Shown here: in pieces, positions 8,465 through 22,508 of the stretch | Position numbering within the stretch: the stretch's first letter is position 1 | How the letters are laid out: each line of letters begins with the position of its first letter | IMG/VR virus record: IMGVR_UViG_3300033571_006041 | Location: 1 to 27,417 of that record | DNA: 27,417 bases | Source: a virus | Reading direction: 5' to 3' (one strand) | Position numbers and translations under genes: made by a program | The notes under the pieces: model-generated | Told to the model about the DNA's origin: nothing | Seen by the model: only the letters and a program-made list of their open reading frames with translations | Databases searched by the model: none

Positions 8465-8494
8465 ATCATACGCATCCTGTTGCAACGCTGTCAA
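8465..8494 (-). promoter_or_regulatory. Promoter P1 (TTGACA-N18-TATGAT)
   Basis: Perfect -35 TTGACA (8494-8489) and -10 TATGAT (8470-8465, 5/6) on the minus strand, 18-nt spacer, 53 nt from the -10 to the ATG at 8411. The -35 lies at the exact centre of the dyad 8481-8503. It starts at the stop codon of the resolvase-like gene. Confidence 0.72.
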
Positions 8495-8503
8495 CCCGTT
8501 GCA
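8481..8503. promoter_or_regulatory. Operator O1: TGCAACG-N9-CGTTGCA
   Basis: Perfect 7+7 bp dyad, arms 8481-8487 and 8497-8503, centred at 8492 on the P1 -35 hexamer. Identical arms and spacing occur at O2. Position over the -35 favours a repressor site. The binding protein is unknown. Confidence 0.68.
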
Positions 8504-9110: not shown

Positions 9111-9139
9111 ATTATACCATACCGTGCAACGCCGTTTTT
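9111..9139 (-). promoter_or_regulatory. Promoter P2 (extended -10 TGGTATAAT)
   Basis: Perfect TATAAT (9116-9111) preceded by TG-G, an extended -10. At 17-nt spacing the -35 position (9139-9134) is AAAAAC, a poor hexamer, so the extended -10 should carry recognition. The -35 position coincides with the centre of dyad O2. It sits in a 158-nt gap (9054-9211) that is otherwise AT-rich. Confidence 0.7.
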
Positions 9140-9147
9140 GCGTTGCA
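9125..9147. promoter_or_regulatory. Operator O2: TGCAACG-N9-CGTTGCA
   Basis: Same arms and same 9-nt spacer length as O1: arms 9125-9131 and 9141-9147, extended by one more pair (C9132/G9140) to 8 bp. Centre at 9136, on the -35 position of P2. Confidence 0.68.
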
Positions 9148-9211: not shown

Positions 9212-9505
9212 TCATCCCTCTAAAAGCCTTGCGAGCTGCGCAGTGCCGCCATCGCTCAAAGTAAACCGGCTTGGCTGCAGCTCCATCAGCCCGTGCTTCA
9301 CAAGGTCTGCATTGGTTTTGCGGTTGCCAATGCCCTCGTACAAGAAAAACCACCCTTCAGGCGCAATGGCATCAGCGTAGCGCTGCGAGAGAATGCACCA
9401 CGCGCGCCCGCCAACCCCAGGCTCCTCACACCACGCGTCAGCGCCCTCTTGCACCGCAATCACGCGGTCATCAAGAAAAGGCGCGGCACGCTCTATGCGC
9501 GTCAT
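9212..9505 (-). CDS. Hypothetical protein (97 aa)
   Basis: Soluble alpha/beta-looking protein beginning MTRIERAAPFLDD, with Trp/Cys residues in WCEEPGVGGRAWCIL and an EGWFFLYEGIG strand. I recognise no family. ATG 9505 is selected over an upstream start at 9529 because it forms an ATGA overlap with the preceding stop. It is the last gene of the chain of coupled small genes before the P2 region. Confidence 0.65.
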   Translation of the reverse strand: MTRIERAAPFLDDRVIAVQEGADAWCEEPGVGGRAWCILSQRYADAIAPEGWFFLYEGIGNRKTNADLVKHGLMELQPSRFTLSDGGTAQLARLLEG

Positions 9506-9681
9506 TTGATATGGCCGCCGCAGAGCCACTGCAAGCGCCTGCTCTTTGGCGCGTAGCTGATGCGCAGCACGCGCTTAGCATCTTTGAGATTGAGCAACTG
9601 CTGCGCGCACTCTGCGCAAAGCGTAGGCGTAAACACCGGCGCTTTGCTTGCGCCGCCGCGCGAAGTTTTTACGCCAGCCAT
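9502..9681 (-). CDS. Small putative zinc-binding protein (59 aa)
   Basis: Reads MAGVKTSRGGASKAPVF at the start, then C22-A-E-C25 and, near the end, W52-L-C54-G-G-H57. The Cys/His set (C22, C25, C54, H57) could ligate one zinc around a short basic helix (KDAKRVLRI). The ATG at 9681 lies 13 nt inside the upstream membrane gene and the stop overlaps the next ATG (ATGA). No family recognised; DNA or RNA binding would fit the basic charge but is a guess. Confidence 0.55.
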   Translation of the reverse strand: MAGVKTSRGGASKAPVFTPTLCAECAQQLLNLKDAKRVLRISYAPKSRRLQWLCGGHIK

Positions 9682-10607: not shown

Positions 10608-11002
10608 AATCCGCCCCCATCAACCTTGGCGTACCAGCCCTGAATGGCGCGCTGAAGGTCAGCCACGCTGTTGCCAATGTGCGTGAGTTGCCCGCTGCCA
10701 CCATCCCAGCGTGCCGCGCTGAGCTTTGGCAGGTAGTCAACACTCTCCACCGTCATTGCCGTACCATCCGTGTAGCCGGTCACGATTAGCACCGTAAACC
10801 AAGGCGTAGCTGCCAGAGCGCTGAGCAGCCCACGCTGCCCTACGCTAACCCCCTCATCAGGGCGCTTCCACTCTTGAATAAGAAACTTGCCCTTGCGCTC
10901 AGCGATTAGGTCAACATTGCTAAAGCCCCATTTAGGGTTTCCCTCAATGAGCCCGTCAATCTCCGTAGTGTCAATGTGCTTAGCCTCACTGTTTCGCATC
11001 AT
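10604..11002 (-). CDS. Putative PD-(D/E)XK nuclease (132 aa)
   Basis: The core D31-L-I-A-E-R-K-G-K-F-L-I-Q-E44-W-K46 matches the beta-hairpin with D and ExK of the restriction-endonuclease fold, with Q56 downstream as often seen in VRR-NUC and resolvase-like proteins. The rest is alpha/beta with no second domain. Probable role is DNA processing in replication or recombination, given the neighbours (winged-helix replication protein, dNMP kinase). ATGATG at 11002 follows GGAGGTGG and overlaps the upstream TGA. Motif-level evidence only. Confidence 0.6.
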   Translation of the reverse strand: MMRNSEAKHIDTTEIDGLIEGNPKWGFSNVDLIAERKGKFLIQEWKRPDEGVSVGQRGLLSALAATPWFTVLIVTGYTDGTAMTVESVDYLPKLSAARWDGGSGQLTHIGNSVADLQRAIQGWYAKVDGGGL

Positions 11003-11439
11003 CGCCCACCTCCGCGCAGAATTGCGCCAACGCTCAGCGGTTTAATATAAGTGTCACTCTCTTTCTCTTTCTCTCTCTCTATCTCTTTCTCAGACCGTTG
11101 CACAACCGTTGCATAACCGTTGCTTTTGGCATTTCTCCATCGTGCGGAGCGCTCTGTAACAGTTGGGTCAACTTGGTACTTAGAAAAATTACGCAAATAA
11201 ACGCGCTCATCTTGTAAAAAAATGAGCCCTACTTTCTCCAATGTTGATAAATGCCGGTGTAGGTTTTTAGGCATCAGCGCCTTCAGGTGTGCCATTGAGC
11301 CAAACGAGCCCTGCGGGCGCTGCCGCTTAGCACGGGTGAGCAGCTTGATATACGCCAGCTGCGCCCCATCAGGCAGCAACGCAATCTGCTCATCCTCATC
11401 CCAGCCTACCGTTAGTTTTATCCACGCGCCTTGTGACAT
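10999..11439 (-). CDS. Winged-helix replication initiator / replisome-organiser-like protein
   Basis: 146 residues. The N-terminal 95 look like the wHTH of phage replisome organisers (MSQGAWIKLTVGWDEDEQI, LLPDGAQLAYIKLL, then KNLHRHLSTLEKVGLIFL as recognition/wing). A charged tail (EKEIEREKEKESD, 113-125) follows, then a basic end. Such proteins bind an origin, often inside their own gene, and recruit host helicase. Consistent with that, the codons for residues 105-115 are three 11-bp iterons and those for the charged tail form a polypurine tract. ATG 11439 has GGAGG 7 nt upstream; an upstream start at 11487 would lie in an intercistronic hairpin. No helicase gene is present nearby. Confidence 0.68.
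   Translation of the reverse strand: MSQGAWIKLTVGWDEDEQIALLPDGAQLAYIKLLTRAKRQRPQGSFGSMAHLKALMPKNLHRHLSTLEKVGLIFLQDERVYLRNFSKYQVDPTVTERSARWRNAKSNGYATVVQRSEKEIEREKEKESDTYIKPLSVGAILRGGGR
11041..11092. other. AT-rich and polypurine/polypyrimidine tract beside iterons
   Basis: The plus strand is pure pyrimidine from 11056 to 11091 apart from one A at 11081, and TTTAATATAA occupies 11041-11050. A strand-asymmetric tract followed by AT-rich DNA, directly adjoining the iterons at 11094-11124, is what a replication-origin unwinding element would look like. It lies inside the coding frame. Confidence 0.5.
11094..11124 (+). repeat. Three tandem 11-bp iterons, ACCGTTGCA core (candidate origin)
   Basis: Copies at 11094-11102, 11105-11113 and 11116-11124 (last base changed to T), phased exactly 11 bp, about one helical turn. 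The core CGTTGCA is the same heptamer as the arms of operators O1 and O2. They lie in the replication-protein gene, as origins do in lambda O and in several replisome-organiser genes. No fourth copy is visible on either side. Confidence 0.6.
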
Positions 11440-14155: not shown

Positions 14156-14184
14156 AAGGTACACCCCCCTGCAACGGCTGTCAA
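14156..14184 (-). promoter_or_regulatory. Promoter P3 (TTGACA-N17-TACCTT)
   Basis: Perfect -35 TTGACA (14184-14179), 17-nt spacer, and a -10 TACCTT (14161-14156) that matches TATAAT at only three bases but fits the TANNNT form used by many actinobacteria. The -10 is 55 nt from ATG 14100, nearly the same as at P1 and P2, and the -35 lies under the imperfect dyad O3. Confidence 0.55.
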
Positions 14185-14192
14185 GCGTTGGC
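14170..14192. promoter_or_regulatory. Operator O3, imperfect TGCAACG-N9-CGTTGGC
   Basis: Left arm identical to O1/O2, right arm 5 of 7. Further half-site-like sequences follow: GGCAACG (14190-14196) and TGTTGCG (14199-14205). The cluster is centred on the P3 -35. Confidence 0.5.
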
Positions 14193-14527: not shown

Positions 14528-15674
14528 CCCACGAGCCGTTGCCAACCACCACAGAGAGCAGGCCCGCTGGCGCGATTACGCCCGCCTGCTCAGTAAACCA
14601 TTGGCTGCCGCCATCAAGCGCTGGCGCTTGGATATGCGTGCGCGCCCCTGATTGCTTCACCATCAGGTGGTGATAGTGCCCTGTGAGCAGTAGCTGCGCA
14701 TCGCCAATGGGCTGGAAGCCCAGCGCCTGCTTTGCCCACCACGCCTCACTGGTGCCCTTCATTTGGTGCCCGTGCGCCAAGCCAACAATGGTGCCGCACA
14801 CATCAATTGTCAGTGTCAACTCATTTTTAGGAAACACAAACGCAATGTGGTCATAGGCTGGGTTGGCGCGGATTACCTCGCCCACCTGCTCAATGGTTGC
14901 CACATCATCGTTATCACCAAAGGTGGTGTACGCCTTGCCGCTCTGCCGATTCTCGCCGTGATTACCAGGCACCGCCGCAACAATGATTTCAGGCGCAAAG
15001 GTTGCCCAGTGCGTCAGCGCTTTCACCATCAAGCGCCGCACCACCGTCACCTGCTCGCGCCTATCTAGGTCAGCTTGGAATGCCTGCATTGCGTAGTGCC
15101 CGCTGCAGGATTCAACCAAGTCACCTAAGCCAACTACCACCAAGCGCTTGAGCGGTCTGCCTAATTTCACAAGCTCACGCCATCGCTGCTCAACCTCGCC
15201 AATGCCTGCCAGGAATCGCTGCACAATGCCAGCGCTACCGCCGCCCTCACCCTTGCCCATTTGCAAGTCACTCACCGCCACCAGCAGCGCCACGCCATCC
15301 TCACGGATTGCTGGGCGCTTTGGCTTATAGCGCTTAATCTCTGCAATCAATGCCGCAACATCGCCATCAGCGGCAACGCGCTTTTGCACCACCTTGCCCT
15401 TCCACTGCCGGTTGAGTTTCCCTAGCGGGTCACCCCAGACATTGAACAGCACAGGCTCAACCACCTCAAACAGGTCTGGGTTTAAGCCCCATACCTTCAG
15501 GATGGTTGACCAATCTGGCGCATTCTCAGCGGGCAGCGCGTCAGTGGTAATGGTGCCCTGCTTGCCATCCCATTGAATCCCAGGCTCCCAGCCCTCAGCG
15601 TGCTTGCGCTCTGGGCGCTTTGCAGCGTCAAGCTCTTGCTGCACTTTTAGGATTTCATCAAGCCCCTCAGACAT
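14481..15674 (-). CDS. Calcineurin-like metallophosphoesterase
   Basis: 397 aa from ATG 15674 (8-nt overlap with the HTH gene; an upstream GTG/TTG frame to 15758 would overlap more). The five metallophosphoesterase blocks are visible: D136-L-Q138 (variant of DxH), GD185-L-V-E188, GN238-H239-G-E, H301-G-H303 and GH333-Y-H335. The N-terminal 120 residues are a separate, mostly helical region. DNA exo/endonuclease activity of the Mre11 kind is often assumed for phage members; the reaction is not shown here. The DxQ and GDxxE variants are typical of a phage subgroup as I remember it. Paired with a small HTH protein as in actinobacterial phages. Confidence 0.85.
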   Translation of the reverse strand: MSEGLDEILKVQQELDAAKRPERKHAEGWEPGIQWDGKQGTITTDALPAENAPDWSTILKVWGLNPDLFEVVEPVLFNVWGDPLGKLNRQWKGKVVQKRVAADGDVAALIAEIKRYKPKRPAIREDGVALLVAVSDLQMGKGEGGGSAGIVQRFLAGIGEVEQRWRELVKLGRPLKRLVVVGLGDLVESCSGHYAMQAFQADLDRREQVTVVRRLMVKALTHWATFAPEIIVAAVPGNHGENRQSGKAYTTFGDNDDVATIEQVGEVIRANPAYDHIAFVFPKNELTLTIDVCGTIVGLAHGHQMKGTSEAWWAKQALGFQPIGDAQLLLTGHYHHLMVKQSGARTHIQAPALDGGSQWFTEQAGVIAPAGLLSVVVGNGSWDDLRVLPCDAGTPRA

Positions 15675-15897
15675 TGGTGCACCTGCACTCACCGCGCCGG
15701 TGGCGCGCAATCGCAAAGTAGCGCCAGCGGTGCCCGCGCTTTTCCAGCCAGAGCTCAATGGCTTTGCTGGTAATGCTCACGGTCTGTAGCGCCTCATCAA
15801 GCGCCGCACGGTCTGATGCCTCTAACTCCATCAGCTCGTAGGTACAGCGCGGCCCTTTTAGGGGCTGCAGCGCCCTAAACTCATCAAGCCTATCCAT
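15667..15897 (-). CDS. Small helix-turn-helix protein (76 aa)
   Basis: Residues 30-73 read as an HTH unit: SDRAALDEALQTVSITSKAI, then LWLEKRGHRWRYFAIARHRR, ending in GECRCTNV. The pattern of acidic helix, S/T-x-x-A-I, RGH and a final ARHRRGEC is common to small phage proteins encoded beside metallophosphoesterases. DNA binding is inferred; it is one candidate for an early regulator. ATG 15897 has an excellent GGGGAGG SD. It follows a 67-nt gap after the holin gene. Confidence 0.68.
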   Translation of the reverse strand: MDRLDEFRALQPLKGPRCTYELMELEASDRAALDEALQTVSITSKAIELWLEKRGHRWRYFAIARHRRGECRCTNV

Positions 15898-17368: not shown

Positions 17369-19100
17369 AGGTAATCACCACAAAGCCGGAATCTCCGTTT
17401 CCTCCGTTTCCTGCAACTGCTGTAAATGATGACGCTGAATAACCCTGTCCAATAGCAGTGCCGCCTGTGCCAATGCGCGTTGCAATTCCGGCTGCGCCTC
17501 CACCTGCGCCACCGTTGCCGCTGTTCGGAGTGCCTGCGTTTCCACCATTTCCAGCAGTCACCGTGACATCGTATGCATTGACAGTCACTGAGCCCGCCGT
17601 GCTGATTACAAGTGAAGCACCATTGCCACCCCAGGCACCGCCAAGACCAGAGGCAGGGAAGTTATTTCTAGTTGTACCAGCGGTTGCAGTGTTGGTGCTT
17701 GTATTCATATTTACTCCAGCGCCTGAGCCGCCACCAGTCATCCACCCAGAGCCAGGAAATACTGAAACTTCAGAAACTGAGCCAGCAGAAAATGAATATA
17801 CCCAGGCAGCAGTTCCTGAGTTTTGTGTGACGGTATATGTTCCTGCAGTTCCAGGTGCTGAATGCGTCACAACTGCCTGTTTTGGAACATTTAGAAATAC
17901 ATTTGTGCTGTAAGAAACACCATAGCCAGTAAGCGACGGCGGAAGGTTTCCGGATGCTCCAGGAGTCGCAACAACGGTGCCGATAACGGGGATTGCGCTG
18001 CCAGAAACAACATCACCAGAGGATGCAAGATATCCGCCAAACGAGGAGGTGCCACCCGCCGCGCCTGCTGTTCCGTTTGATACCACTGTGCCGGCTGCTG
18101 CTGCTCCAACTGCTCGGACTGCGCTACCGCCACCACCACCTGCCCCGCCTGCGCCAACGCTGATAATTACCGAGCCAACATCGCCAACATAAACATTGGG
18201 AACATATGCATAAATGCCAGAGCTTCCGCCGCCGCCGCCGGTGCCCGGTAGGGTTGAGTTAGACGCAAGTTGCCCATAAATCCTTGCATCTCCGCCCCTG
18301 CCGCCGCGACCGCCTCCAACTACCGCAACATTTACATAGTCCACGCCAGTTGGCCGCACCCAGGTTGCACTGCTGGTGAAGTATTCAGTGATAAGAAATG
18401 ATTGCGAGCCGCCACCACCAGCGGTTGCAGTCTGCAGCAGCACGCTAGTCAGGTCAACCTTTGCCGTCCCGGTGACTGCTGCTGACGCGGTAAGAACAAG
18501 GCTCAAATCAACATACTGCGCTGCTGCGTTAATGATTGCGGTGCCGCTTGTGGTAAAGCCATTAATGCTCGTCCAGGTAGTGCCGCTGTTTGCGGTGCCG
18601 ATTGCATAAGTGCTGAGTGCAGAGCCTGAGGCTGAGTAGTATGTTGCACTCATCACTAAATCCCATTGATTTGTAGCCATCGTTCCAACCTTTGTGATTG
18701 CGGCAAAAGCTTTTTGGCGTAGTGTTAGGTTTGTATCGTTAAGCAAGTATGAGCGCGTAGTAAGCGTCAGGCTATCGCCTGAGCCAGCAGCACTTGGGTC
18801 AAGCCGCACAGCCCACGCCTGAGCGGTTTCGTCATAGTTCATCTTTGCGGTGATGCCGCCAAGATTGACTATTTGCCAATACGGCAACTCATTGCCGGTT
18901 GCAATTTCTGCAACCTCATCTGGTGGCAGGAGATTGAAGTTTGCGTTTGGGATGCCATATAGCGCCTGCGTGCGGGCGGCAATTCCCAATGGTGATGCGC
19001 CAAAGGAATTATCAGGGGAAACGATAAGGTTCCCCTGAGGGTCTTGCACTGCGCTGAGATTCTGCGCAGTGCTGTCATATCGTGAGCCAAACTGTGGCAT
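17358..19100 (-). CDS. Glycine-rich tail adhesin
   Basis: 580 aa. Residues 1-100 form a connector; 100-235 a Ser/Thr-rich beta region; from about 240 (SFLITEYFTSSATWVRPTGV) the classic glycine-rich domain begins: VNVAVVGGGRGGRGG, GTGGGGGSSGIYAYV, SVGAGGAGGGGGSAV, and ends SGFVVITYV. Such domains, probably Gly-rich beta/polyglycine-II sheets with variable loops, form the receptor-binding tips of tail fibres. The gene is after the tail hub gene, 9 nt downstream, and 17 kb of the late operon precede it. Host specificity is likely set here. Codon use is richer in A/T at third positions than in the early genes. Confidence 0.8.
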   Translation of the reverse strand: MPQFGSRYDSTAQNLSAVQDPQGNLIVSPDNSFGASPLGIAARTQALYGIPNANFNLLPPDEVAEIATGNELPYWQIVNLGGITAKMNYDETAQAWAVRLDPSAAGSGDSLTLTTRSYLLNDTNLTLRQKAFAAITKVGTMATNQWDLVMSATYYSASGSALSTYAIGTANSGTTWTSINGFTTSGTAIINAAAQYVDLSLVLTASAAVTGTAKVDLTSVLLQTATAGGGGSQSFLITEYFTSSATWVRPTGVDYVNVAVVGGGRGGRGGDARIYGQLASNSTLPGTGGGGGSSGIYAYVPNVYVGDVGSVIISVGAGGAGGGGGSAVRAVGAAAAGTVVSNGTAGAAGGTSSFGGYLASSGDVVSGSAIPVIGTVVATPGASGNLPPSLTGYGVSYSTNVFLNVPKQAVVTHSAPGTAGTYTVTQNSGTAAWVYSFSAGSVSEVSVFPGSGWMTGGGSGAGVNMNTSTNTATAGTTRNNFPASGLGGAWGGNGASLVISTAGSVTVNAYDVTVTAGNGGNAGTPNSGNGGAGGGAAGIATRIGTGGTAIGQGYSASSFTAVAGNGGNGDSGFVVITYVA

Positions 19101-19109
19101 ATATTCCCC

Positions 19110-21236
19110 CTACGCCTTATTGTTTGCAATCAGACTTGCAAGGTCTGACGGGTTTTTGCGGTTGAAGTATACGGTAATAATTTGCTGGTAGCTTCCAGGC
19201 TCAAGTGACCATTCTACCTGCTCAACCCTGTACAAGCCGGCCAAACCTAAGGAAGCGCTATTTATCTCACACCATTGCCCAGGCTCCCAGCGATTTACCA
19301 GCGAGTAGCTTGCGGTGCCGGTCTGCGCATACCCAGCACTAAAACCGTATTTGTTGAAGCTTTGAGTACCCGCACCGCGTACAGTGAATTGCCCAATCTG
19401 TAGGGGTTTATGCCGCTCCAAAAACCAGGCTGCTGACGCTGAAGCAATGCGTGAGGCAGCATCTTTTACCACCGTTGGATAGTCAACAATGGCGGCAAGC
19501 CTTGGCCCGCTTCGCGCAGCATAGGCAGCCGTGCCGTCCATCCTTAGGGCTTGGTCAAAGTCAACAATGGCGCTGACCGCAGTGCCAGTTGATGATGGAA
19601 TGGTGAACATTGCGCGCTTTGTAATCTCGTGGTCATAGCTGACAGTGAGCGAGTATGGCGCAATTGATGCCTTGCCGGTGGTGGTGTTTGGAGTGCCAGC
19701 GCCTGAGTCAGTAGTTATCACATACGGAGATGTGGCGTAAGTGGGTTTTGAGGCTGGGTCAACTAACTCATATACAATCTGCCCAGCAAGGTTCACATAG
19801 TAGCGGCGGTCTTTTGCGTCATTGCCGCTGTAGGTTTCAATGATAGTTTCAATTGATGAGCGCAAAGAATCAGCGCTAAACTGAATTGCGTCAGAGTTAA
19901 TGTAGGTGGTGCCGCCAACAATCTTGCTTACATCTGATGTGCTTACCAAGCGCTGAAGCGCCGCGTCATCGGCAGAATACGCATTTGCAACCGTCATAAG
20001 CCGCGCCATTGCAGTATCCTCAGTCAGGCCACCAGGAATTGTCACCACGAGTTGCCCGTTAAATCCCTCGGCTGACACCACCGGTCTGCCAACATAGACA
20101 TCACCTGTAGCGGTAAGAGTTGGCATTGAGCCGCTGTAGGCGCTTGGAAGCACAAGGATGACACTGTTTATGCCATTGTTGATAACGCGCGCCCCGTTAT
20201 AGCCAGTGCGAATAAGGCGCAAGAACGCGGCAGGATTACTTCCGCCGCTCGCGCCAAAGCCAGTGATGCCAAGTTGCGTGCCGCTGTCAATGTTTAAGTC
20301 AACAAATCGCCCACTGATTTGGATTCTGTCCTTGGAGCCTGAAACTACTGAGCCGTTGATTGCTGCGCTTGTGAGGCTGACGGCTGATGGGCCAGCATTG
20401 TCATAGGTAAGCGTGCGCGCATCAGGGACGCTCTTAATTTTGAATACACCATTGAAGCTTGCGCCAGAGCCGCCAGCGCCACCACCCATCGCCCCAGTAA
20501 CACGGATGGTTTGCCCCTGAACAAAGCCGTGCGAAACGCCAAAGGTGATAGTTGAAACATTACTTGAGCGGCTGATGCCTGTTGTTTCAATACTGCGTGC
20601 GCTGACCATTTGTCCAAATACGCCAATGCGCTCAAGCAGCCAGTTTGCATCACTGAGGTTTACGGTGGTAATGGTGCCTTGCCCTGAGCCCGTCATTTCT
20701 ACTGATAACGAAGTGAGCACGCCAACAAAACGGCGGTCTGCAACCACTGAGGTAGAGCCCGTATCTTTTTGCACCAGCCTAAAGCGGGTGTTATCTGGCA
20801 CCGTGCTAAACCAAGGGCCTGCCGTTGGCGTGGTTTCCTGCATAATCTGCAGCGACATTGTTGAGCTTGAGCCGTCACCGTTGGCGCTCATTGAGATTCC
20901 GTCAAGCAGGGCAATCATTGCCTGCTGCCGTGCGGTGCCTGCCGCAAGGTTGATTGGCGGGTTTAGCAGGTCAACTGAGGCATAGGCTGAGCCTATGGTT
21001 GCCGTACCCGCACTGCCTGCGGCTGTATAGGTAAAGGTGGTGCCTGAGGTGGCGGTGATTTGCCATACGCCAGCCATCGTGGTGCCTGCTGCGCCGGTGG
21101 TATTTCCAATCTCTACATAGGCACCAGTGGTGAGATTATGGGCAAGTGCCGTAGTTACCGTAACGGTTGAGCCGCTGCGTGACGCTGACGCAATCGGCGC
21201 AATATCCATAAGCAGCTGAAATGGAGCGGTAGCCAT
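19110..21236 (-). CDS. Tail hub / minor tail protein with Ig-like inserts
   Basis: 708 aa, immediately after the tape measure gene (TAAATG), the place of distal tail and baseplate-hub proteins. Two related Ser/Thr/Gly-rich beta domains are seen: about 12-90 (VTVTTALAHNLTTGAYVEIG, GVWQITATSGTTFTYT) and about 217-297 (ITFGVSHGFVQGQTIRV, GVFKIKSVPDARTLTY). Both follow the xxHxL/FxxGxxVxI...GVxxI pattern of Ig-like carbohydrate- or surface-binding modules in phage tails. The middle and C-terminal parts (DAALQRLVSTSD, LERHKPLQIGQFTV, WEPGQWCEI) look like hub core. No catalytic domain seen. Confidence 0.78.
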   Translation of the reverse strand: MATAPFQLLMDIAPIASASRSGSTVTVTTALAHNLTTGAYVEIGNTTGAAGTTMAGVWQITATSGTTFTYTAAGSAGTATIGSAYASVDLLNPPINLAAGTARQQAMIALLDGISMSANGDGSSSTMSLQIMQETTPTAGPWFSTVPDNTRFRLVQKDTGSTSVVADRRFVGVLTSLSVEMTGSGQGTITTVNLSDANWLLERIGVFGQMVSARSIETTGISRSSNVSTITFGVSHGFVQGQTIRVTGAMGGGAGGSGASFNGVFKIKSVPDARTLTYDNAGPSAVSLTSAAINGSVVSGSKDRIQISGRFVDLNIDSGTQLGITGFGASGGSNPAAFLRLIRTGYNGARVINNGINSVILVLPSAYSGSMPTLTATGDVYVGRPVVSAEGFNGQLVVTIPGGLTEDTAMARLMTVANAYSADDAALQRLVSTSDVSKIVGGTTYINSDAIQFSADSLRSSIETIIETYSGNDAKDRRYYVNLAGQIVYELVDPASKPTYATSPYVITTDSGAGTPNTTTGKASIAPYSLTVSYDHEITKRAMFTIPSSTGTAVSAIVDFDQALRMDGTAAYAARSGPRLAAIVDYPTVVKDAASRIASASAAWFLERHKPLQIGQFTVRGAGTQSFNKYGFSAGYAQTGTASYSLVNRWEPGQWCEINSASLGLAGLYRVEQVEWSLEPGSYQQIITVYFNRKNPSDLASLIANNKA

Positions 21237-22508
21237 TTATGGCCCTCTACGCGTTACACGCTGCCCATTGGTGTTGGCGGTGTAGCCGCCAAGGTAGCCG
21301 CTCGTGCTCTGTGCAATTGTTTTGCCGTCAAGATTCACACTCAGATTTGCAGTGAATCCGCCGCCTGTGGTTGCACCCATTCCAAACACATTGCTGCCAG
21401 CGGCGCTGCCCTGCGCGGTTTTAATCTTTGCCTGAGATTCTGCGCTACCCACTGCGGTCAGCGCGTCAACCACCTTGGTGATGTTATCCACCAGCCAAAT
21501 GAGCGCGTCAAAGAATGGCTTGGCAATGGCAAAGGCTGCCTCAATTGCAGCGCCTAGCAGTTTGAATGCGCCAGCAAGTGCGCCATCACCGTCACCCCAA
21601 AGCGCAGCGATAAGCTCGCCAACCTTGCCAAACAGGATGCCCAGAGAGTCTGCAGCCGCCTGCATCTCAGGCTTGAAGTTTTCCACCACCTCGCCAACCA
21701 CCTTGCTGACTGAATCAAACAGCCCGCCAGGCTCAGCAAGCCCGCCAATAACCTCTGCCATCTTATCGCCAAGGACTCCAAGCCCCTGCTCAACGCCAGG
21801 CAGCACATTGGTGGTAAGGAAATCAAGCCCCTCATTAACGATAGGCAGCAGCTTTGCGCCCATATTTTCCATTGCCTCATTGAGCCTGATTTGCGCAGCT
21901 TCAAACTTTACGGCTGTGCTGTTGGCAATCTCATCGGCAACGCCTGCATACTTTTCGCTGGCAGCGCGCAAAATATCCTGCTTGCTTGCGCCCTTTTCAA
22001 CCTCAACACCAAGGCTTGCAAGCCCGCGCATACTCCCTTGTGCTGCCTTGCCAAGCGCCATCATCACCGTGCCAACATCCTTGCCGGTTGCGGCAGAGAT
22101 ATCTGCGGCAATCGCATTTGCCTTGAGTAGCTGGTTTTGCTTGGTAAAGAATCGGCTGCCTACCTCCAGCCCCTTGCGCACATCGTCATCAGTCATCCCA
22201 AGGCGCTGGAACGCCTTAATCTGCTCCTCAACCTTGGGGTTGAGTTTGTCCATCTCAAAGCCGCGCGCTTTCAGGGCGGCATTGAGCCTGATGGTGGCTT
22301 TCTCATCCTCTGCCGCGCTCTTGATTGCTGAGATTGCAAGCGCGCCAAGGGCTGCTGCGGCTGCGGCTGCACCGGCAACCATAGCCTTAAACGCAACGCC
22401 AGCCGCGCTGCGAAGCCTGCCCATTGACTTGCCAACCTTGCCCATCACTGAGCTGGCGGCATCTTTTGCAATGATTGCAAATACTGCGGTGCTAGTTGCG
22501 CTTGCCAT
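21237..22508 (-). CDS. Tape measure protein
   Basis: 423 aa. N-terminal membrane-like Ala segment (VAGAAAAAAALGALAISAI, about 45-63) after a KVGKSMGRLRSAAG linker, then the TMP core: NPKVEEQIKAFQRLGMTDDD, SAATGKDVGTVMMALGKAAQGSM, SLGVEVEKGASKQDIL. It ends with hydrophobic and Gly-rich segments. It sets tail length and probably enters the host envelope. At about 0.15 nm per residue (general rule) the tail would be near 60 nm. It follows the gp10-like gene without spacing (TAAATG). The antisense 345-codon open frame on the plus strand is a composition shadow. Confidence 0.9.
   Translation of the reverse strand: MASATSTAVFAIIAKDAASSVMGKVGKSMGRLRSAAGVAFKAMVAGAAAAAAALGALAISAIKSAAEDEKATIRLNAALKARGFEMDKLNPKVEEQIKAFQRLGMTDDDVRKGLEVGSRFFTKQNQLLKANAIAADISAATGKDVGTVMMALGKAAQGSMRGLASLGVEVEKGASKQDILRAASEKYAGVADEIANSTAVKFEAAQIRLNEAMENMGAKLLPIVNEGLDFLTTNVLPGVEQGLGVLGDKMAEVIGGLAEPGGLFDSVSKVVGEVVENFKPEMQAAADSLGILFGKVGELIAALWGDGDGALAGAFKLLGAAIEAAFAIAKPFFDALIWLVDNITKVVDALTAVGSAESQAKIKTAQGSAAGSNVFGMGATTGGGFTANLSVNLDGKTIAQSTSGYLGGYTANTNGQRVTRRGP

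Follow-up and report, generated by a model that had tools for sequence, protein, structure and literature searches.

Several phages are described as replicating from an origin inside the gene of the protein that binds it. According to the available part of PMC8965321, the replisome organisers ORF13 of TP901-1 and Rep2009 of Tuc2009 bind direct repeats within their own genes, and these repeats serve as the origin. In SPP1, direct repeats inside gene 38 adjoin an AT-rich unwinding element and are bound by gp38, forming oriL, and in lambda the initiator gene O contains iterons and an AT-rich region that make up ori-lambda (PMC6316719 and PMC7466680, respectively, as far as their text is available). 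In the accessible portion of PMC13028717, the F plasmid protein RepE binds direct iterons at the origin, while its dimer binds inverted repeats and autoregulates the repE gene.

Here we describe a locus in the window, which is the whole of the IMG/VR virus record IMGVR_UViG_3300033571_006041 (27,417 bases) of a small aquatic phage, where phased direct repeats of the word GCAACG lie inside a gene, rep, assigned as the replication-initiator gene (Table 1). In the reading that we consider quite probable, the 11-bp repeats would be iterons bound by the phage's own Rep, and a replication origin inside rep would consist of these repeats and the polypurine/AT-rich stretch next to them. Rep would also bind the same hexamer as inverted pairs with a fixed 9-bp gap on the -35/-10 elements of early promoters, including the promoter heading the genes that lead to rep, and we infer that it most likely represses them. 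Rep would then start replication while limiting the expression of its own gene and of other early genes, and fresh copies of the origin could pull it off the operators by titration.

The direct repeats inside an organiser gene are a feature shared with TP901-1 and Tuc2009. The window differs from these phages in sharing the repeat word with promoter operators, a promoter operator not being mentioned in the available part of PMC8965321, and Rep differs from their organisers in being a 146-aa protein whose matches to replisome organisers are at best weak. In SPP1 there is a further origin, oriR, and the available text of PMC6316719 does not state an operator role. As with RepE, direct iterons are combined, here by sequence, with inverted repeats at the promoter of the initiator's own operon, but the F plasmid iterons lie outside repE whereas the array of the window lies inside rep. 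By analogy, the system would work like RepE without being a member of its family. In the F plasmid, iteron and operator have a common core; lambda iterons are longer, about 18 bp. In-gene origins are known already (lambda O, SPP1 gp38, TP901-1), and the co-evolving origin/operator word is judged new because our search of the open-access literature (titles and the starts of abstracts, with most subscription papers outside its scope) showed no phage organiser whose origin word doubles as an early operator. If this is true, one protein and one 6-bp word would couple origin firing to early gene control by the logic of iteron plasmids, natural word changes would provide matched protein/origin/operator triples for direct tests of origin recognition by organisers, and phage origins would become predictable from sequence.

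Table 1. Features of the rep locus and of the early promoters, with positions in the window
Feature	Positions	Strand	Basis
rep, 146-aa replisome-organiser-like protein	10999-11439	minus	weak profile matches and structure model
Predicted basic helix VTERSARWRNAKSN (codons 94-107); residue 98 is class-specific	11119-11160	minus	model and alignment
Iteron 1, GCAACG	11118-11123	minus	phased-pair count; kept in relatives
Iteron 2, GCAACG	11107-11112	minus	phased-pair count
Iteron 3, GCAACG	11096-11101	minus	phased-pair count
Polypurine tract (coding strand), codes EKEIEREKEKES; possible opening/loading element	11056-11091	minus	conserved codon skew
AT-rich stretch TTTAATATAA	11041-11050		AT-rich position kept in relatives, sequence varies
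Operator O1, TGCAACG-N9-CGTTGCA; holds -35 TTGACA (8489-8494), -10 TATGAT at 8465-8470	8481-8503	minus	palindrome
Operator O2, TGCAACG-N9-CGTTGCA; upstream of extended -10 TGGTATAAT (9111-9119)	9125-9147	minus	palindrome
Operator O0, degenerate, CCAACG-N9-CGTTGC around TTGACA (14179-14184)	14170-14192	minus	recurs in relatives

All recognised genes of the window are on the minus strand. In the order of transcription, the locus encodes a RecE-like exonuclease, an Erf/Rad52-like annealing protein, the 146-aa Rep, a 132-aa protein without a family and then a 190-aa protein, which, judged by eye from its sequence, resembles a nucleotide kinase. The host is suggested to be actinobacterial because the named phage nearest by large terminase is Pontimonas phage phiPsal1 (45%); the RepO of phiPsal1 contains no 11-bp array. 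No relative of the window phage was found in the collection of genome contigs searched, nor any relative of Rep in the phage collection searched. A 105-aa protein of no assigned function (9212-9529, minus strand, GWFFLYEGIGNRKTN) is very conserved, being 77-87% identical in six relatives and still present where Rep is 30% identical or undetectable, and has 213 relatives in the viral collection. The GC skew climbs to around or above zero only at 18500-21500, in the tail gene region.

Profile searches with Rep gave matches to the PHROGs families phrog_186 (DnaD-like helicase loader, E 2.3e-5) and phrog_4880 (replisome organizer, E 6.2e-5), to PF09681 (Phage_rep_org_N, E 3.5e-4) at 21 bits, below the cut-off of 23.3 bits, and to TIGR01714 at 16.7 bits, below the curated cut-off of 49.8 bits. 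The Pfam and PHROGs matches are weak but concordant, agreeing on phage replisome organisers or DnaD-like loaders. The Pfam search (E up to 1) returned no plasmid-initiator domain of the Rep_3 type and no match to a lambda O family, in which respect Rep differs from lambda O. A structure model built from 18 family members (mean pLDDT 69.8) showed a winged-helix-like core at approximately residues 20-90; after it come a basic helix (94-107) and then a charged tail. Residues 23-88 of this model aligned to winged-helix domains with a middling best Z of 7.9 (2.4 A over 64 residues), and a Foldseek search gave E values of 0.03-0.06 at best; the VIA-align matches listed for the model include no DnaD or lambda O chains, which excludes nothing.

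The array had been annotated initially as three identical copies in exact 11-bp phase, each with the core CGTTGCA. The phasing was borne out, and ACCGTTGCA is present at 11094-11102 and 11105-11113, but the third copy is ACCGTTGCT (11116-11124), with one mismatch; CGTTGCA is likewise exact in two copies, the third keeping only the hexamer CGTTGC that is found in all three. On the coding strand the array reads GCAACG-GTTAT-GCAACG-GTTGT-GCAACG. CGTTGCA by itself is not rare in the window (13 matches vs 8.8 expected); pairs of the form GCAACG-N5-GCAACG were observed twice against 0.03 expected, a number reached in none of 100 shuffles, and the array is the best lag-11 self-match in the 27.4 kb (23/34, next best 18/34).

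Twelve relatives were found first, one of which ends before the array, and all 11 that reach it keep three GCAACG at 11 bp. In five relatives, the codons of N107, A110, T111 and Q114 are identical (4/4 in each), compared with 34-41 of 70-71 same-residue codons in codons 1-105 of the same five. Replacements spare the word (S106 to R by AGC to CGC, V113 to M by GTG to ATG), and the change of the R115 codon from CGG to CGC falls outside it. Relatives of the GAAACG type, 53-58% identical to Rep, carry a changed word: GAAACG stands at all three places in L233, where A becomes E and Q becomes K in different frames, and in two of three copies in L238 and L239, the third being GAAACA, while L227, L230, L231 and L234 have two GAAACG copies 22 bp apart. 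L228 has no recognisable array. The alignment of homologues, which the initial annotation had proposed as a check, thus came out opposite to the refuting result named there: the iteron bases are either kept or replaced in concert in every copy, at the expense of the amino acids. The operators change along with them, as L233, L238 and L239 have perfect GAAACG-N9-CGTTTC operators and L232 and L234 have GAAACG-N9-CGTTCC.

It had also been considered that the DNA repeats are a by-product of a peptide repeat, and N, A, T, Q and R residues do recur in the GCAACG group. However, a period of 11 bp is not divisible by 3, the single-base change shared by all copies in L233 gives different amino acids, and the same word is found kilobases away at promoters. 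The peptide reading fails because the three copies occupy three different reading frames, in which one base change common to all of them replaces different residues, and we give it hardly any credence.

The proposal that the iteron core is the arm of early operators was confirmed: GCAACG-N9-CGTTGC occurs twice in the window (O1 and O2) against 0.005 expected, each site being extended by a flanking T and A to a 23-bp palindrome, and among hexamer pairs at gaps 0-40 in both orientations only gap 9 was found. The operators coincide with promoter-like sites. The TTGACA in O1 belongs to the top promoter-like site of the scanned 9.4 kb (11/12 matches), O2 accompanies an extended -10 without a good -35, and O0 sits upstream of the genes leading to rep, so that by sequence an inverted-repeat operator sharing the iteron word is present at the promoter of the initiator operon. 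O0, O1 and O2 all recur in relatives, with two mismatches in the upstream site of L005, L009 and L010.

We regard it as very improbable that the palindromes are RNA hairpins or terminators. Covariation of the arms alone would fit such structures, and one palindrome is listed as terminator-like on the plus strand, but the word is common to the palindromes and the in-gene direct repeats, the 9-bp spacing is kept over -35/-10 elements, and the palindromes lie ahead of genes. The hairpin reading, like the peptide reading, was rejected.

Of the 213 relatives of the 105-aa neighbour, 80 were kept as family loci; the rep region is outside the contig in 11 of these 80, and several repeat earlier contigs. 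Further contigs account for 52 of the 80; at the same place they encode a Rep whose identity is about 30% or undetectable, and their arrays are nearly all GTCACG-N5-GTCACG. The operator GTCACG-N9-CGTGAC, predicted from these sister iterons alone, was found as 14 perfect sites in 46 genomes (479 kb), with no such head-to-head GTCACG pair at any other gap from 0 to 40. At 2.2-4.2 kb upstream of rep, where they coincide with promoters resembling TTGACA-N18-TACCAT, these sites give the sister genomes a palindrome built from their own iteron word. The tail-to-tail arrangement CGTGACGTCACG occurs 17 times at gap 0 in the sister genomes, with an extra half-site abutting the operator in inspected loci. 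In L298, L299, L307 and others, an extra CGTGAC half-site directly abuts the operator (CGTGACGTCACG-N9-CGTGAC) 2.4-4.3 kb upstream of rep.

Activation, with Rep as an early activator, would suit O2, which precedes an extended -10 that has no good -35. O1 and the operators of the sister group, however, overlap the -35 or -10 element of what would otherwise be good promoter-like sites, and we consider activation unlikely and repression the preferred reading.

Array words and operators, the latter allowed at most one mismatch, were compared in 75 genomes, many of which are near copies representing approximately three independent word changes. An operator matching the array was present in 35/49 GTCACG, 10/13 GCAACG and 3/3 GAAACG genomes and in 2/5 of those with the 22-bp GAAACG spacing. 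Most genomes without one lack flanking sequence: in 12 of the 14 operator-less GTCACG genomes, the upstream sequence is shorter than the nearest operator distance seen (2188 bp), and L300 and L319 have 2340 and 3479 bp upstream. GCAACG operators were missing from all GTCACG genomes, and GTCACG operators from all genomes of the GCAACG and GAAACG types. The GTCACG genome L344 has an additional one-mismatch GAAACG site, a mixed O2 (GAAACG..CGTTGC) in five GCAACG genomes fits both words, L350 combines a GTCACG-like operator with an array that is not clear, and L304 and L228 have neither array word nor operator.

Since array and operators share their word, which from relative to relative changes at both in parallel, these comparisons strongly support the view, implied by the initial annotation, that one protein reads both the array and the operators. 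This protein is likely Rep. There is a small probability that a different protein, encoded by phage or host, reads the word at both places and that Rep merely carries the sites; several neighbours are conserved alongside Rep, such as the 105-aa protein with the identities given above. Against this, among the window genes compared in relatives, Rep is the one product with a recognisable DNA-binding fold (from below-cut-off matches and the model) found in all, its residues 98-99 track the word whereas the 105-aa protein hardly varies, and the in-gene origins described in the available parts of PMC6316719 and PMC8965321 are each bound by the protein that the surrounding gene encodes. A small Arg/Cys-rich protein of 76 aa (15667-15897, minus strand), encoded ahead of a phosphoesterase-like exonuclease gene, presumably resembles small phage DNA-binding proteins. 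This pair was not found in the searched relatives L003, L004, L006, L010, L011 and L013, and all of these except L010 keep perfect operators. Apart from L002, GCAACG relatives of the window with retained operators yielded no copy of the 76-aa protein.

In the family alignment, residue 98 of distinct Reps is S in 10/10 with GCAACG, V in 7/7 with GAAACG (8/8 counting L295, which has V) and, of 34 with GTCACG, Q in 33 and K in 1, a correspondence in which word class is partly confounded with ancestry and L295 provides the only change inside a clade. The rep DNA is the same in L295 and L296 and carries the iterons GCAACG and GTAACG, and the L295 operator, GCAACG-N9-CGTTAC, is built from these two words. 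L295 is nested in the GTCACG clade when the tree is made from residues 1-92, which exclude both the array and residue 98, and before residue 105 only positions 39, 98 and 99 set it apart from all GTCACG Reps. Residues 98 and 99 are V and A in L295, whereas both are Q in the GTCACG Rep of L325. Judged from these sequences, the L295 lineage is one that changed iterons and operator together, independently. The L296 operator is GTCACG despite the rep DNA shared with L295 and was counted as an exception. The two contigs have identical sequence downstream of a point about 1.5 kb ahead of rep and switch sharply to unlike sequence on its far side, as a recent exchange would leave them; recombination likely separated the L296 rep from its operator.

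Next to the array, the run of plus-strand pyrimidines with one exception was found as annotated, except for its start: it extends over 11057-11091 with A11081 as the sole purine, position 11056 being A. In the charged tail encoded by 15 family genes, Arg is AGA/AGG in 27/27 cases (AGA 26) vs 67/196 in the rest of the genes, Ile is ATA in 13/13 vs 8/97, and Glu is GAG in 83/83 vs 79/89; in the tract of 35 sister genes, Arg is AGA in 92/92 vs 20/499 elsewhere. These counts come from related rows and are therefore not independent; the skew points to selection on the DNA. TTTAATATAA was located exactly where it had been noted, and its letters are not conserved among relatives whereas an AT-rich stretch at the same place is. 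The AT content is 50% in the rep gene of the window and 62% in the 55 nt over the tract. In the sister clade, the tract is followed by ACTCTTACTAA or a near copy, and the 12 nt after the tract are 70% AT vs 43% for the gene.

Instead of an origin, the in-gene array could be a titration or regulatory site of Rep. It has just 2-3 copies, the AT-rich element is weak in the window, and the GC skew, suggested earlier as a check on the origin, has no sign change near 11 kb. On the other hand, the adjoining tract codons are strongly skewed in all groups, and the available parts of the sources cited above describe the repeats within the TP901-1, Tuc2009, SPP1 and lambda genes as origins. We therefore rate a purely regulatory array as rather unlikely and prefer to view it as a candidate origin.

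Arrays of this kind also occur outside the family. In the viral collection, GCAACG is repeated three times at 11 bp in 101 stretches vs 6 at a 13-bp phase. The 101 loci correspond to 72 distinct genes (9 lack a gene and the rest are repeats), of which 23 passed a filter on array position and length, with the array on the coding strand at nt 240-620; 2 of the 23 are relatives of the window itself. Among the 25 PHROG families most often matched by the array genes, those with a name are replication, primosomal or DnaD-like. The scrambled word GACACG was rejected as a null, as it was found at 11 bp in 35 stretches (26 genes, 14 of which passed the filter), also in replication genes. Because GACACG arrays sit in replication genes as well, 11-bp arrays of various words are, as far as sequence comparison goes, a general feature of phage replication genes. 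The TIGR01714/PF09681 family text holds that a low-complexity region reflects DNA repeats acting as origin. Among 11 named initiator genes, the lag-11 repeats of Shimadzu, IFTN2 and Vibrio 1.184 were matched by at most 2/200 codon shuffles, that of BA3 by 6/200 and those of the other 7 by at least 17. In 35 short loci outside the family, no conserved 9-bp inverted operator was found, and 3 head-to-head gap-9 pairs lie in or beside arrays.

The basic helix was surveyed outside the family in hand-picked genes with arrays of GCAACG (35/72) and GACACG (22/26). It is present in 11 of 33 coding-strand GCAACG genes, with S in 9 and M in 2, and two GACACG genes have Q; among named phages, V goes with GTAACG in Silvergun and K with GTCACG-like repeats in Harrison. 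A genome scan for STERxRRYR gave 119 stretches, 18 in long enough frames and none with repeats, and was uninformative. We tentatively suggest, with less confidence than for the origin and operators of the window, that a basic helix ER-x98-x-R-x-R after the winged helix may read an 11-bp-phased hexamer in otherwise unrelated phage organisers, S corresponding to GCAACG, V to G(A/C/T)AACG and Q/K to G(A/T)CACG. Were this code true, the origin, and in the family of the window also the early operators, could be read from the protein. Three unrelated phage initiator genes (L024, L041 and L089) contain 11-bp GCAACG arrays that also hold inverted copies.
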